Shown here: positions 3,029 through 32,628 of the stretch, piece by piece | How the letters are laid out: the number at the start of each line of letters is the position of its first letter | Numbering within the stretch: the stretch's first letter is position 1 | Assembly (NCBI RefSeq): GCF_003480315.1 | Contig: NZ_QUIV01000029.1 | Location: 1 to 40,740, forward strand | Direction: 5' to 3' | Origin: Clostridium sp. AM33-3 | GTDB lineage: Bacteria; Bacillota; Clostridia; Lachnospirales; Lachnospiraceae | DNA length: 40,740 bases | Position numbers and translations under genes: made by a program | Notes under the pieces: model-generated | Seen by the model: only the letters and a program-made list of their open reading frames with translations | The model's database searches: none | Told to the model about the DNA's origin: nothing

Positions 3029-3985
3029 ATGGAATTTCGCCAGCTTCAGACCTTTATTCAGGCTGCACAGCTTCAGAGCTTTTCCAGGGCGGCAGTTCAG
3101 CTTGGTTATTCGCAGTCGGCAGTGACGGTCCAGATCCGCATGCTGGAAAAGGAGCTTGGAACGCGCCTGTTTGACCGGATGGGAAAGCAGGTGGTATTGA
3201 CACCGCAGGGACAGAAATTTTTGATGCACGCGAACACGATCCTCTACGAGGTAAACCGTACACGCCTGTCCATGCATGAGGATGAGGAACTGAAAAATCC
3301 GCTTCACATCGGCACGATCGAATCGCTGTGTGCGGCCAAATTTCCGGCTATTGTGAGCCGGTTCCGGGAACATCATCCACAGGTAAAGCTTCAGATCACG
3401 GTGGGAACCCCGGAAGAGCTGATTCGCATGATGGAGCACGATCAGCTGGATATCATTTATATTTTGGATGCGCCCCGGTGGAGTGAAAGCTGGGTGAAGG
3501 CCATGGAAGTGGCAGAGCCGGTCGTATTTGTGGCATCCCCGGCATTCTGGGCACAAAAATACGCAGAATGCGAGAAGAACGGCACAGTGAAATGGAGCAC
3601 AAAAACAGTTGGGCAGGAAGAAATATCGGTTCGGCAGATAACATTGGACCAGATTTTACAGGAACCATTTTTTTTAACAGAGAAAAATGCAAATTACCGC
3701 CAGGCACTGGACCAGCACCTTGCCTCCTGCCACTGCTGCCTGTCCCCGGTTCTGGAAATCAGTGATACAGCCTTTATCATCCAGATGCTGGAGCAGAGCC
3801 GCGGTCTTTCGTTTCTCCCGCTGTTTGCGGTGCAGAAGCAGATCTGGGAGGGAACACTTGCTGCTGTGGAGGTGGATGACGTGGAAATATCCATGTACCG
3901 TCAGATCTTTTACCACAAAAATAAGTTCAGAACGCGGGAAATGGAGCAGTTCATCATCTTTGCGTCCGAGGAAGAAAACCATTGA
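3029..3985 (+). CDS. LysR family transcriptional regulator, probable regulator of the serine operon
   Basis: LysR-type regulator of 318 aa. Residues 1-60 form the winged helix-turn-helix (MEFRQLQTFIQAAQLQSFSR, then AAVQLGYSQSAVTVQIRMLE), followed by the linker helix and a periplasmic-binding-protein-like effector domain (about 90-300). An in-frame ATG exists at 2966, but the one at 3029 has AGGGAGG immediately upstream and gives the canonical LysR N-terminus. It is divergent from sdaAB/sdaAA/symporter, the classical LysR arrangement, so serine or a related metabolite is a reasonable effector guess. No direct evidence of the effector is visible. Confidence 0.92.
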   Translation: MEFRQLQTFIQAAQLQSFSRAAVQLGYSQSAVTVQIRMLEKELGTRLFDRMGKQVVLTPQGQKFLMHANTILYEVNRTRLSMHEDEELKNPLHIGTIESLCAAKFPAIVSRFREHHPQVKLQITVGTPEELIRMMEHDQLDIIYILDAPRWSESWVKAMEVAEPVVFVASPAFWAQKYAECEKNGTVKWSTKTVGQEEISVRQITLDQILQEPFFLTEKNANYRQALDQHLASCHCCLSPVLEISDTAFIIQMLEQSRGLSFLPLFAVQKQIWEGTLAAVEVDDVEISMYRQIFYHKNKFRTREMEQFIIFASEEENH

Positions 3986-7104: not shown

Positions 7105-7132
7105 AACAACAACTTCATAAAACAGGTGACGA

Positions 7133-7194
7133 TATGTATATTCTGGAGATGGGTCCAGAGTTTCTACCAACTGCCGTAAAGAGTTGACTACATA
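7133..7194 (+). promoter_or_regulatory. Purine (guanine-type) riboswitch aptamer
   Basis: Three-helix junction of the purine class. P1 is TATGTA/TACATA (7133-7138 with 7189-7194), P2 is TCTGGA/TCCAGA (7142-7147 with 7154-7159), and P3 is CAACT/AGTTG (7168-7172 with 7182-7186). The diagnostic J2/3 GTTTCTACC and loop 3 CCGTAAA are intact. The specificity base before the P1 3' strand is C (GACTA, position 7188), so it should bind guanine or hypoxanthine rather than adenine. Mild deviations are J1/2 TATTC instead of TAATC-like and loop 2 GATGGG instead of the usual ATATGG-like heptamer. It precedes guanine deaminase, which fits the ligand. Confidence 0.85.
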
Positions 7195-7198
7195 GTTA

Positions 7199-7228
7199 CA
7201 TGAACCGGGGAACCCCGGGAGTTTCATG
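7199..7228 (+). promoter_or_regulatory. Expression-platform hairpin between aptamer and attenuator
   Basis: CATGAA-CCGGGG-AA-CCCCGG-(GAG)-TTCATG forms a stable hairpin directly after the aptamer. The segment CATGCG (7225-7230) overlaps its 3' arm. CATGCG is also complementary to CGCATG (7272-7277) inside the terminator, so a mutually exclusive antiterminator pairing is possible. Confidence 0.5.
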
Positions 7229-12224: not shown

Positions 12225-12723
12225 ACAGTATAAGCTGCTTTCCTGCACCATTAACGGAAAGAAAGTAGAAAAAATGATCGATGTGCGCGCGTCCCTAACC
12301 GATGTGCTGCGGGATGATTTCCGCCTTACCAGCGTCAAGAAGGGCTGTGAGGTAGGAGAGTGCGGAGCCTGCAACGTCCTGATCGACGGCGAGTGTTTCA
12401 ATTCCTGCATTTACCTGGCTGTGTGGGCCGAGGGCAAGGAAATCCTGACCCTGGAGGGCCTGGCAGGCCCGAACGGCGAGATGTCCGACATCCAGCAGAC
12501 CTTCATTGATGAGGCCGCTGTCCAGTGCGGATTCTGTACCCCGGGCTTTATCATGAGCGCAACGGAGCTTTTACAGTCCGGAAAGGAATATTCCGATGAC
12601 GAGATCCGCAAACTCCTGTCCGGCCACTTGTGCCGCTGCACCGGATACGAGAATATCTTCCGCGCAGTGAAGAAGACCATGCTGAGACGGCTTGGAAAGG
12701 ATAAGGAAGCAGACGAGGTGTAA
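12217..12723 (+). CDS. xdhC: Xanthine dehydrogenase, 2x[2Fe-2S] subunit
   Basis: Small iron-sulfur subunit, 168 aa. The plant-ferredoxin-like N-terminal cluster ligands are C44, C49, C52 and C64 (GCEVGECGAC...C). The [2Fe-2S]-binding helical domain has C104, C107, C139 and C141 (CGFC and CRC). All eight expected cysteines are present. The start at 12217 overlaps the xdhB stop and follows GGAGGTG. It is the last gene of the operon; no terminator is seen directly after it, and an independent RNA promoter begins 21 bp downstream. Confidence 0.95.
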   Translation: MSKQYKLLSCTINGKKVEKMIDVRASLTDVLRDDFRLTSVKKGCEVGECGACNVLIDGECFNSCIYLAVWAEGKEILTLEGLAGPNGEMSDIQQTFIDEAAVQCGFCTPGFIMSATELLQSGKEYSDDEIRKLLSGHLCRCTGYENIFRAVKKTMLRRLGKDKEADEV

Positions 12724-12743: not shown

Positions 12744-12772
12744 TTGATAGGTCATAAAGATTATGCTAATTT
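12744..12772 (+). promoter_or_regulatory. Promoter of the structured RNA downstream of xdhC
   Basis: TTGATA and TAATTT are separated by 17 bp, and TGC directly precedes the -10 as an extended -10 element. The predicted start, about 12779, coincides with the first base of the closing helix of the RNA, which strengthens the call. Confidence 0.55.
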
Positions 12773-12778
12773 AAAATA

Positions 12779-13077
12779 CGTGACCACTCAGATATTGAGT
12801 TAAGCCCAGACGGACAGGCGGGTCAGAAGCTGAAAGTGGGAAACCACATTATTGATTGGGTTAGGAGCCCAAATTTTATAAGTCGATACGCTACATGCGT
12901 ATGTTATCAGTGCAAAAGGCACGTCACTTGTGAAACGGTCAATAAGAGCTTCTGGCAAAAGCAGAGCAGAAAACTGGGGATTAAGGTCACCGTTTTTCTG
13001 CCTGTCAAAGGGACAGAGACATTTAAAGACAAAAACAGCTACAGCAGGTGATGGAATATGCCGTCACCTGTTTTTTT
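12779..13077 (+). ncRNA. Large structured non-coding RNA, raiA-motif-like candidate
   Basis: About 300 nt without a credible protein-coding frame, with its own promoter and intrinsic terminator. A long-range closing helix GTGACC/GGTCAC (12780-12785 with 12985-12990) encloses a 211-nt domain. A second long-range helix CAGAAGC/GCTTCTG (12824-12830 with 12948-12954) encloses several hairpins. These are GTGG-GAAA-CCAC with a GNRA loop (12836-12847), TTGGG/CCCAA (12856-12872), ATACGC/GCGTAT (12886-12902) and GTGC/GCAC (12910-12922). ACTCA/TGAGT (12786-12800) sits beside the closing helix. A 3' module pairs GTTTTT with AAAAAC (12992-12997, 13031-13036) around CTGTC/GACAG. The 211-nt multibranched domain matches the raiA motif of Firmicutes and Actinobacteria in size and complexity, but I could not verify its consensus. 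No raiA gene is adjacent. Confidence 0.7.
13045..13077 (+). terminator. Intrinsic terminator of the structured RNA
   Basis: The 10-bp stem CAGGTGATGG / CCGTCACCTG (one G-U pair) has loop AATATG and is followed by seven Ts. Confidence 0.9.
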
Positions 13078-13082
13078 ATACC

Positions 13083-13250
13083 AATTTCAGGGACGGCTGC
13101 GGGGAAATACAGGAAGCCATGGGAAGCGAGGAAGAGGGCTTTATCACAGCAGACTTTGATCTGGACCGGCTGATGGAAGACCGTCTTTCCTGGGGACTGT
13201 TCCGGGACAGACGTCCTGAGATGTATGGAAAAATATGTTCCGTAATCTGA
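13083..13250 (+). pseudogene. 3' remnant of a carbon-nitrogen hydrolase (nitrilase family) gene
   Basis: The reading frame ending at 13250 encodes about 55 residues with the typical C-terminus of nitrilase/CN-hydrolase proteins: EEEGFITADFDLDRL, then LFRDRRPEMYGKI. The Glu-Lys-Cys catalytic core and everything upstream are missing. The frame runs backwards into the terminator of the structured RNA, so there is no plausible start. I take it as the tail of a gene otherwise deleted, perhaps an amide or nitrile hydrolase related to purine or pyrimidine breakdown; that link is speculative. Confidence 0.6.
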
Positions 13251-13342: not shown

Positions 13343-14248
13343 ATGAAAAAACAAAAGACTGGGAACAACGGCTTTACGCTTGCGGAGCTTTTGATCGTCG
13401 TTGCGGTCATCGGAGTTCTTGTGGCGATATCCATGCCTGTTTTTGCAGGACATCTGGAGAAAAGCCGTGAGACGGTTGATCTTGCCAATGTGCGCTCCGC
13501 TTACTCGGAAGTGATGACGGCTGTGATGACTGAGGATACAGCAAATTACTCCAGGACAGTAAAATTGAAACAGAAACGGGATAACTGGAATGCCTATGAT
13601 CCCGTTACGGTTGCTGGGATCACGCATTCCAGGGATGAGGGTAATACGGAGCACTGGATCGGGATCCCTGTTGAGAATGGAAAATGTACGCTGTCATATA
13701 TTCCGGATTTCGGAATGAAGGTAATATGGAGCGGAGCAGGCGGAAATGATACACCGCTTCCTTTTCCGTATAACGATGATCTGCATGGAGCACTCGACAG
13801 AACCGGTATACTGGATGAGCTGAAAAACCAGAATAAGACTTATTTTGAAATAGATTCTAAGTGTCCAAAGTCTGATATGCTGACAAGAGTTAATGAGGAA
13901 ATCCGGAAGGAAGGCAGCAGCAGTCTGCTGGGAACCGGAACATGGGCCTATATGGGAAGTCCGAAAAATGCATCCAGTCGGTATTTGTTCTGGACATCTA
14001 TGGATACCAATCAGGTTGGTGCAGGAAAAAAAATTCCGGTCATAGTCAGCAAAGTAGATGGTGGTTTTTATATTTCTGAAACGACAACAGCTGCAAGAAA
14101 GAAGGACGGAAAGACGTACGTTGCAATTGCGGATCATATTGCAGACTTTTCCCCTTATACATCCGGCAAAAAATATGACAGTCTGGAAGATGCCTACAAT
14201 GCATATCAGAAGCTGCTGGCGGATGGAACCTATGAAAAAGCATCTTGA
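13343..14248 (+). CDS. Pseudopilin-like protein with prepilin-type N-terminal methylation site
   Basis: Protein of 301 aa. The N-terminus is a class III prepilin signal: basic leader MKKQKTGNNG, cleavage expected after G10, F11 as the new methylated residue, conserved E15, and a hydrophobic helix to about residue 35 (FTLAELLIVVAVIGVLVAIS). The rest is a globular, mostly soluble domain of no family I recognise. A pilin-like surface or secretion fibre subunit is expected, processed by a prepilin peptidase. No peptidase, ATPase or platform gene lies in the window, so it is an orphan. Start supported by AAGGAGAG. The -35 box of the next promoter overlaps its stop codon. Confidence 0.8.
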   Translation: MKKQKTGNNGFTLAELLIVVAVIGVLVAISMPVFAGHLEKSRETVDLANVRSAYSEVMTAVMTEDTANYSRTVKLKQKRDNWNAYDPVTVAGITHSRDEGNTEHWIGIPVENGKCTLSYIPDFGMKVIWSGAGGNDTPLPFPYNDDLHGALDRTGILDELKNQNKTYFEIDSKCPKSDMLTRVNEEIRKEGSSSLLGTGTWAYMGSPKNASSRYLFWTSMDTNQVGAGKKIPVIVSKVDGGFYISETTTAARKKDGKTYVAIADHIADFSPYTSGKKYDSLEDAYNAYQKLLADGTYEKAS

Positions 14249-32445: not shown

Positions 32446-32510
32446 GTTACCATTCAGATCGGGGAAGCGCCTCTGGCGCGTCCGCTGATAAATTGAAAAG
32501 TGCGTAATCC

Positions 32511-32628
32511 CTTATTCAGAGTGATGGAGATACAAAGGATCTGTGAAGTCACGGCAACCCCATACGAAATGCTACTGGCAGGAGCGTGCGGAAGGTGCCA
32601 ACCTGAGCGAGAAATCGAGCAATAAGAG
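32511..32628 (+). promoter_or_regulatory. SAM-I (S-box) riboswitch aptamer
   Basis: P1 is CTTATT/AATAAG (32511-32516 with 32621-32626). The S-box hallmarks are in order: CAGAGTGATGGAG, the kink-turn partner region GTGAAGTCACGGCAACCCC, AGGTGCCAACCTGAGCGAG, and the closing GAGCAATAAGAGG. SAM binding normally stabilises P1 and permits terminator formation, lowering expression of the following gene, here the SAM synthetase itself. Confidence 0.93.

Follow-up and report, generated by a model that had tools for sequence, protein, structure and literature searches.

The non-coding stretch that follows xdhC (stop at 12723) and precedes a prepilin-like gene (13343–14248, N-terminal methylation motif present) raises the question of whether it encodes an RNA gene of its own or a part of some larger unit. 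In an initial annotation of the window, i.e., the whole 40,740-nt stretch of Clostridium sp. AM33-3 DNA analysed here, positions 12744–13077 of the forward strand were described as an independent structured RNA, possibly of raiA type or new. The minimum free energy of the RNA stretch is -104.3 kcal/mol, as compared with a mean of -76.1 kcal/mol for 100 dinucleotide shuffles, none of which folds as low (z = -5.7). The Rfam scan that the initial annotation had called for detected no raiA and returned a single family over its cut-off, RF02440 (Streptococcus sRNA SpF59, ldcC RNA), at 12781–12833 with 54.6 bits against a gathering cut-off of 37.2 bits. Positions 1–54 of the 54 in that model are matched, and by score the RNA is a member of the family over about the first third of its conserved core. 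Weak matches to isrK, sraL, Termite-leu and others lie far below the cut-offs of these families and are attributed to chance. Elsewhere in the window, Rfam places a purine riboswitch at 7114–7210, before the amidohydrolase and xdh genes, and a SAM riboswitch at 32509–32628.

Homologues were sought in genome contigs by exact matching to a 25-base pattern derived from the core, and at least 120 stretches matched. The matches listed include Bacillus, Neobacillus, Paenibacillus, Cohnella, Kurthia, Blautia, Lacrimispora, Neglectibacter, Flavonifractor and Phascolarctobacterium, and the likeness among them spans ~200 nt, well past the 54-position RF02440 model. No DNA similar to the RNA was found in phage records and no exact match to the pattern in viral contigs; a plasmid collection gave one match, on a Paenibacillus replicon of 2.7 Mb. 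A covariance model spanning the core and termed R1 (helices P2 to P9, 160 positions, 46 pairs) was built from 31 homologues with the window excluded. The window matches R1 from end to end (model positions 1–160 of 160) at 12781–12945 with 120.9 bits and an E-value of 3.5e-30, E-values being rough and bit scores unaffected by the short calibration of the model; the next best place in the window scores 6.1 bits. R1 finds the RNA in 20 of 398 genomes of a phylum-wide sample of Bacillota, and RF02440 exceeds its cut-off in 48 of 299 genomes of the family, both prevalences being lower bounds set by strict filters. The RNA is present in all 25 genomes examined of one genus.

Placed on the 31 sequences, the named structure pairs 91.9% of the cells, versus 28.8–43.3% when it is slid by one to three columns. 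Seventeen pairs are changed on both sides against a shuffled mean of 11.6, and 90 cells carry a two-sided change against a mean of 32.6, neither value being reached in 500 shuffles; the number of further pair types (41 versus 38.0, reached in 66 of 500) is not beyond chance. This covariation in homologues, a check that had likewise been proposed at the outset, bears out, together with the fold energy and the R1 score, the claim of a genuine, conserved and complex structured RNA. The RNA contains a conserved aptamer-like domain with covariation in P2, P3, a short stem, P4, P8 and P9. Variation is scarce in P5, in the pseudoknot and over most of P7, which are therefore supported by conservation and little by covariation. 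The MAFFT alignment places P4 and P9 partly wrong, which lowers their paired percentages to 67% and 68%, and RNAalifold alone recovers P2, P3, the short stem, P5, P6, P7 and part of P8, with P4 and P9 missing. Separately, of the 113 distinct sequences whose flanks were long enough (window included), 104 were parsed into helices, the nine unparsed ones being left out; full counts such as 104/104 arise partly by construction, because the search pattern and the fixed-anchor parser set some of the bases.

As judged from the fold and R1, the whole RNA (12744–13077) consists of a closing helix P1, the aptamer-like core and a terminator. The 5′ strand of P1 (12744–12752), whose sequence varies by lineage, can form nine pairs, two of them G-U, with 13000–13008. 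In the window by itself this helix is not beyond chance, since 42 of 300 shuffled tails yield one as good, and because of this control P1 of the window was dropped as proof of structure. Across the 104 sequences, the closing helix reaches 10.3, versus 8.5–8.7 with the tails of other loci and 7.0 with shuffled tails. A possible P1b would pair UAAUUU at 12767–12772 with GGAUUA at 12978–12983 (six pairs including two G-U). The conserved core opens with P2 (12781–12785 with 12821–12825), whose outer pair covaries among U-A, G-C and C-G in homologues, and encloses the five-pair hairpin P3 (12786–12800), the stem of which also covaries. In the short stem 12804–12806/12817–12819 the middle pair is compensatory, being C-G in the window and seven other parsed sequences (8/104) and G-C in 96/104. 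A pseudoknot joins CGG at 12811–12813 to CUG at 12830–12832, its middle pair being G-U in the window only and G-C in the other 103 parsed sequences. The invariance of its CGG side is partly a product of the search pattern; by eye, CGG and CCG are also present in four homologues found independently of the pattern (L204, L205, L209 and L210).

P4 (12836–12847, GUGG-GAAA-CCAC) is the hairpin with a GNRA loop seen earlier. The 5′ strand of P5 (12849–12856) forms eight pairs, one of them G-U, with 12938–12945; this long-range helix is kept in homologues and closes a second module enclosing P6 to P9, which agrees with the earlier description of a second long-range helix over hairpins. The assertion that two long-range helices exceed chance therefore holds for P5 and fails for P1 on its own. 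P6 (12858–12870) is GGG/CCC in the window and GAG/CUC in most homologues, a compensatory change. P7 pairs 12878–12883 with 12926–12931 according to the fold and the homologues, and it is followed by P8, extended in the window (12885–12908), and P9 (12910–12913/12919–12922), their details in the window being read by eye. The fold and a terminator scan agree on an intrinsic terminator at 13043–13054/13061–13072 with a U tract up to 13077, and the strong 3′ terminator reported before is upheld.

The same does not apply to the promoter said to stand at the start of the RNA. A scan for sigma-70 (-35/-10) promoters finds no promoter-like site adjoining 12744; the best score just 5′ of the RNA is 8 of 12, and the shuffled mean is 8.3. 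In 120 homologues the mean score is 9.3, and 47% score at least 10, versus 5.6% in shuffles. The window also differs at 6 of 79 conserved columns, versus a median of one in 45 strong homologues, 43 of which have equal or fewer changes. With the six changed columns, the weak P1 and the lack of a good promoter, the window copy stands at the worn end of the range and may be decaying.

Ten reference proteins were aligned to the DNA 3′ of the RNA and the first recognisable gene was counted in 121 loci (the 120 listed pattern matches and L001 from the plasmid search), nine of which, with DNA ending within 700 nt, were left unjudged. That gene is a polyamine gene in 112 of 112 evaluable loci, in 111 of them directly; a gene outside the panel between the RNA and the match would escape this count, and the printed distances of 60–400 nt leave little room for one. 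Carboxynorspermidine synthase (CANS) comes first in 59 loci, an Orn/Lys/Arg decarboxylase in 28, SAM decarboxylase in 21, potA in three, and P-II followed by potA in one. A polyamine gene is also first in 19 of 19 loci of the phylum-wide sample, the twentieth being counted in the family set, and in 39 of the 40 evaluable among 41 family loci, a count without L190 (same genome as L150) and a weak second match in L142; the three locus sets partly overlap (L003 and L134, for example, are one genome). The sole evaluable exception in the family (L181:1376–1557) precedes an ORF for a secreted, peptidase-like protein, peptidase being a judgement by eye. Agmatinase, spermidine synthase, SAM decarboxylase, NspC, AguA, AguB and potA pass their NCBIfam cut-offs; CANS has a single and strong NCBIfam match, yet one under the cut-off (421.8 of 800), and Pfam supplies the names of the decarboxylase and P-II. 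We also note that two copies, L120:1303–1589 and L168:1501–1662, stand before P-II/potA or potA, i.e., before genes of polyamine uptake rather than synthesis.

In the window, a polyamine gene directly downstream is not encountered; only the tail of one is left. The last ~50 codons of aguB (N-carbamoylputrescine amidase) occupy 13092–13250, with the stop at 13250, as identified by protein and DNA matches; a Pfam scan of the tail alone names no family. ORFs of at least 120 aa located 3′ of the RNA were compared from nine loci (ten were tried and L023 has none), and only the 293-aa AguB of L003 matched the window: 13092–13235 corresponds to codons 242–289 with 46% identity over 48 aa (E = 1e-10). 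Behind the RNA, Hungatella UBA7603 (L003) and Clostridium HBUAS56010 (L024) carry genes for the decarboxylase, SpeE, CANS, NspC, AguA and AguB. DNA matches place the RNA and the aguB tail 6.8–7.3 kb apart on one contig in seven relatives (G292, G102, G278, G080, G716, G711 and G709), as compared with ~0.15 kb in the window. On a plain reading of the sequence, a deletion, be it real or a fault of assembly, would extend from just behind the terminator into aguB. With the genes between the terminator and the aguB tail gone, the RNA would yield at most a short terminated transcript and have no target in cis. The view of an independent RNA gene is not supported as regards origin, because the homologues adjoin polyamine genes on their 5′ side as operon leaders, and what is left of aguB in the window is the end of the final gene of such an operon.

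Of 110 sequences, 87 have a terminator-like hairpin ahead of the first gene, versus 29.4 in dinucleotide-type shuffles, and 53 have a strong terminator, versus 1.7; the window belongs to both groups. Strong terminators are found in 22 of 26 decarboxylase-first, 13 of 20 speD-first and 15 of 59 CANS-first loci; the CANS class may use another platform because strong terminators are confined to so small a share of it. In the 53 loci, the 5′ arm of the terminator pairs with the P7/P9 3′ strand of its own RNA at a mean of -12.4 kcal/mol, versus -10.7 kcal/mol for the strands of other loci, and the value for own pairs is reached in 0 of 2000 permutations. Permutation within the first-gene classes gives 0 of 5000 overall and again 0 of 5000 with the 45 unique sequences, although permutations leave some kinship between loci; by class, the figures are 0 of 5000 (decarboxylase-first), 3 of 5000 (speD-first) and an uninformative 1193 of 5000 (CANS-first). 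Four control segments of the RNA show no excess pairing with the terminator arm (133–720 of 1000). The P7 strand is the best partner of the arm in 35 of 53 loci, and another segment is better in 18, including L003, L024 and L091, which are close relatives.

In the window, the putative antiterminator consists of ten pairs between 12922–12931, which is the P9/P7 3′ strand, and 13044–13053 (-14.3 kcal/mol); this strand is the best partner of the arm over the whole RNA, and the duplex is what the 3′ part is predicted to form when the 3′ arm of the terminator is omitted. For the full-length RNA, the state with aptamer and terminator is calculated at -92.0 kcal/mol versus -87.9 kcal/mol for an enforced antiterminator, the free minimum being -104.3 kcal/mol. 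The expression platform is thus predicted to be exclusive with the aptamer-like core. Complementarity of the terminator arm to the P7 3′ strand gives the layout of a transcriptional off-switch.

Homology, fold, association with the operon, terminator/antiterminator complementarity and the missing operon have all been shown computationally, and with good confidence we regard the RNA as a 5′ leader left stranded by the loss of its polyamine operon, belonging to a widespread ~200-nt class of Bacillota that would act as a polyamine, probably spermidine, riboswitch of the transcriptional off type. We infer that the core binds a small molecule directly, that spermidine is the ligand, and that the switch works in the off direction. 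Spermidine is the one product common to the SpeD/SpeE branch and the CANS/NspC branch, which speaks for this assignment. In the proposed mechanism, the ligand would hold the core together and keep the P7 3′ strand inside it; with this strand sequestered, the terminator would form and the operon would be silent. Without ligand, the P7 3′ strand would pair with the 5′ arm of the terminator to form the antiterminator, and transcription would continue. The leader combines the gene partners expected of such a switch with a complex, covarying fold and the layout of a switch. The window further illustrates how an orphan "independent ncRNA" can arise, the operon having been lost behind its leader.

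Alternatively, the leader of these polyamine operons might respond to a protein, or to the ribosome, instead of binding a small molecule itself. The link to the operon and the arrangement of the terminator are equally expected in that case, and the T-box and pyr leaders are leaders of comparable kind controlled by tRNA or protein. Nevertheless, the large core, common to Bacillus, Paenibacillus, Clostridia and Phascolarctobacterium, and its long conserved unpaired stretches, part of which is fixed by the 25-base pattern, are typical of aptamers and make sensing by protein or ribosome unlikely, though it is the alternative that fares best. Inspection by eye also speaks against a conserved upstream ORF, as the AUG of the possible short ORF is lost in many homologues (ACUGCCG or GCUG instead) and the length of P4 varies.

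It is quite improbable that the RNA is a trans-acting sRNA, as the pneumococcal F59/SN20/srn235 is filed, with the window copy free-living and functional without the operon. The window copy does retain the core fold, the terminator and the antiterminator pairing; however, it stands at the degenerate end of the range, and the association in cis with polyamine genes is near total. In pneumococcus, too, the next gene is listed as SP0916, which we take to be the lysine decarboxylase of a polyamine operon. SN20 is listed at 869478–869791, between SP0915 and SP0916, as a discrete RNA with promoter and terminator calls (its length is printed as 318 nt and the coordinates span 314; PMC2887815), but a terminated leader would likewise yield a discrete RNA.

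That the RNA is raiA (ModT) or a relative, as had been suggested, can be discounted, since RF03072 (score cut-off 101.3 bits) does not match a 601-nt stretch of the window at a threshold as loose as E = 5, nor any of the 12 leader-carrying genomes examined with it. This model finds raiA in 46 of the 398 Bacillota genomes (35 over the cut-off), with none of the 20 leader genomes among them, an overlap of zero versus about two expected that is too small to mean much. raiA RNA resembles the leader in its size of about 200 nt, its complex conserved fold and its occurrence in Bacillota, and is described as an abundant transcript of its own (PMC11706538). It differs in the absence of a covariance model match, in the genomes that carry it, in its reported action in trans, and in its position, which is frequently hundreds of bases away from the following gene (PMC11477304), unlike that of the polyamine leader, which lies close to its gene.

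The polyamine leader can be set beside several described RNAs. RF02440, typed as an sRNA gene and named after Streptococcus, represents the 5′ module of the leader, i.e., P2, P3, the short stem and both sides of the pseudoknot; the model ends before P4–P9 and is without P1 and the expression platform. The suggestion that the RNA is new is accordingly correct in part: 53 of its bases are RF02440, but the Rfam model takes in neither the rest of the core nor the link to the operon and the architecture of the switch. The leader class is a candidate novel riboswitch class, catalogued until now as a streptococcal sRNA of 54 positions. Judging by the label "ldcC RNA", the neighbouring gene appears to have been noticed by someone already. 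The Rfam family name and the genomic position make the pneumococcal F59 (PMC3395615), SN20 or srn235 a putative member of the class, and the leader reading offers an explanation for an RNA that was given as a candidate sRNA as late as 2025 (PMC12323649).

The one validated natural spermidine riboswitch found in the literature searched is described as a rare variant of the SAM-I aptamer, with an alignment of 13 representatives, and its authors state that the discovery of further polyamine riboswitch classes seems certain (PMC10853860). It shares with the leader the overlapping genes speE, speB, speD and ldcC and the layout of a transcriptional off-switch with terminator and antiterminator (PMC10853860). 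In contrast, the fold of the leader is different and larger. RF00162 gives no match in the leader at the gathering cut-off or at E up to 5, the only SAM match of the window being the one at 32509–32628, and none at the gathering cut-off in the 22 homologous loci scanned. The odc1 and potE motifs are likewise RNA motifs located 5′ of polyamine-related genes, but they are set apart by their descriptions, odc1 as a stem closed by a large loop with a pseudoknot and tied to ornithine decarboxylase, and potE as a motif with weak covariation support (PMC8632094). Within the open-licence literature of PubMed Central, no description of the leader as a polyamine riboswitch was found, and a term search of two discovery papers from the Breaker laboratory (PMC11109978, PMC6429828) did not retrieve it as a riboswitch. 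The P4–P9 core, the polyamine-operon association and the switch architecture are unrecorded in the Rfam model and in that open-licence literature. It appears fairly likely that the leader represents a second and far more widespread natural class of polyamine riboswitch, preceding polyamine operons of several types in Bacilli, Clostridia and Negativicutes and unrelated to the SAM-I variant, and that the window copy has outlived its operon.

Several homologues are variants in which a module is deficient. By eye, L154:1471–1588, which precedes a decarboxylase gene, is without the P2/P3/pseudoknot module; L115:3287–3477, also before a decarboxylase gene, is without P4, the P5 5′ strand and P6; L212:1501–1629, before CANS, is without P7–P9; and L211:1501–1630, before a decarboxylase gene, has an altered 5′ module. 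L154 and L211 are found by R1 and have no RF02440 match. These four variants could be used to map the function of each module. In L115, Rfam also places a Clostridiales-1 RNA (RF01699, 109.7 bits) at 3614–3770, where it separates the leader from the decarboxylase gene and may form a tandem with the former. The leader at L005:4335–4621 ends at about P9 and continues, by eye, into unlike sequence, with a terminator-like hairpin and polyamine genes still following. A degenerate leader at L071:5657–5943, in a MAG labelled Desulfovibrionaceae, is followed by genes for a decarboxylase, SpeE, SpeB, CANS and NspC, which points to either mis-binning or transfer.
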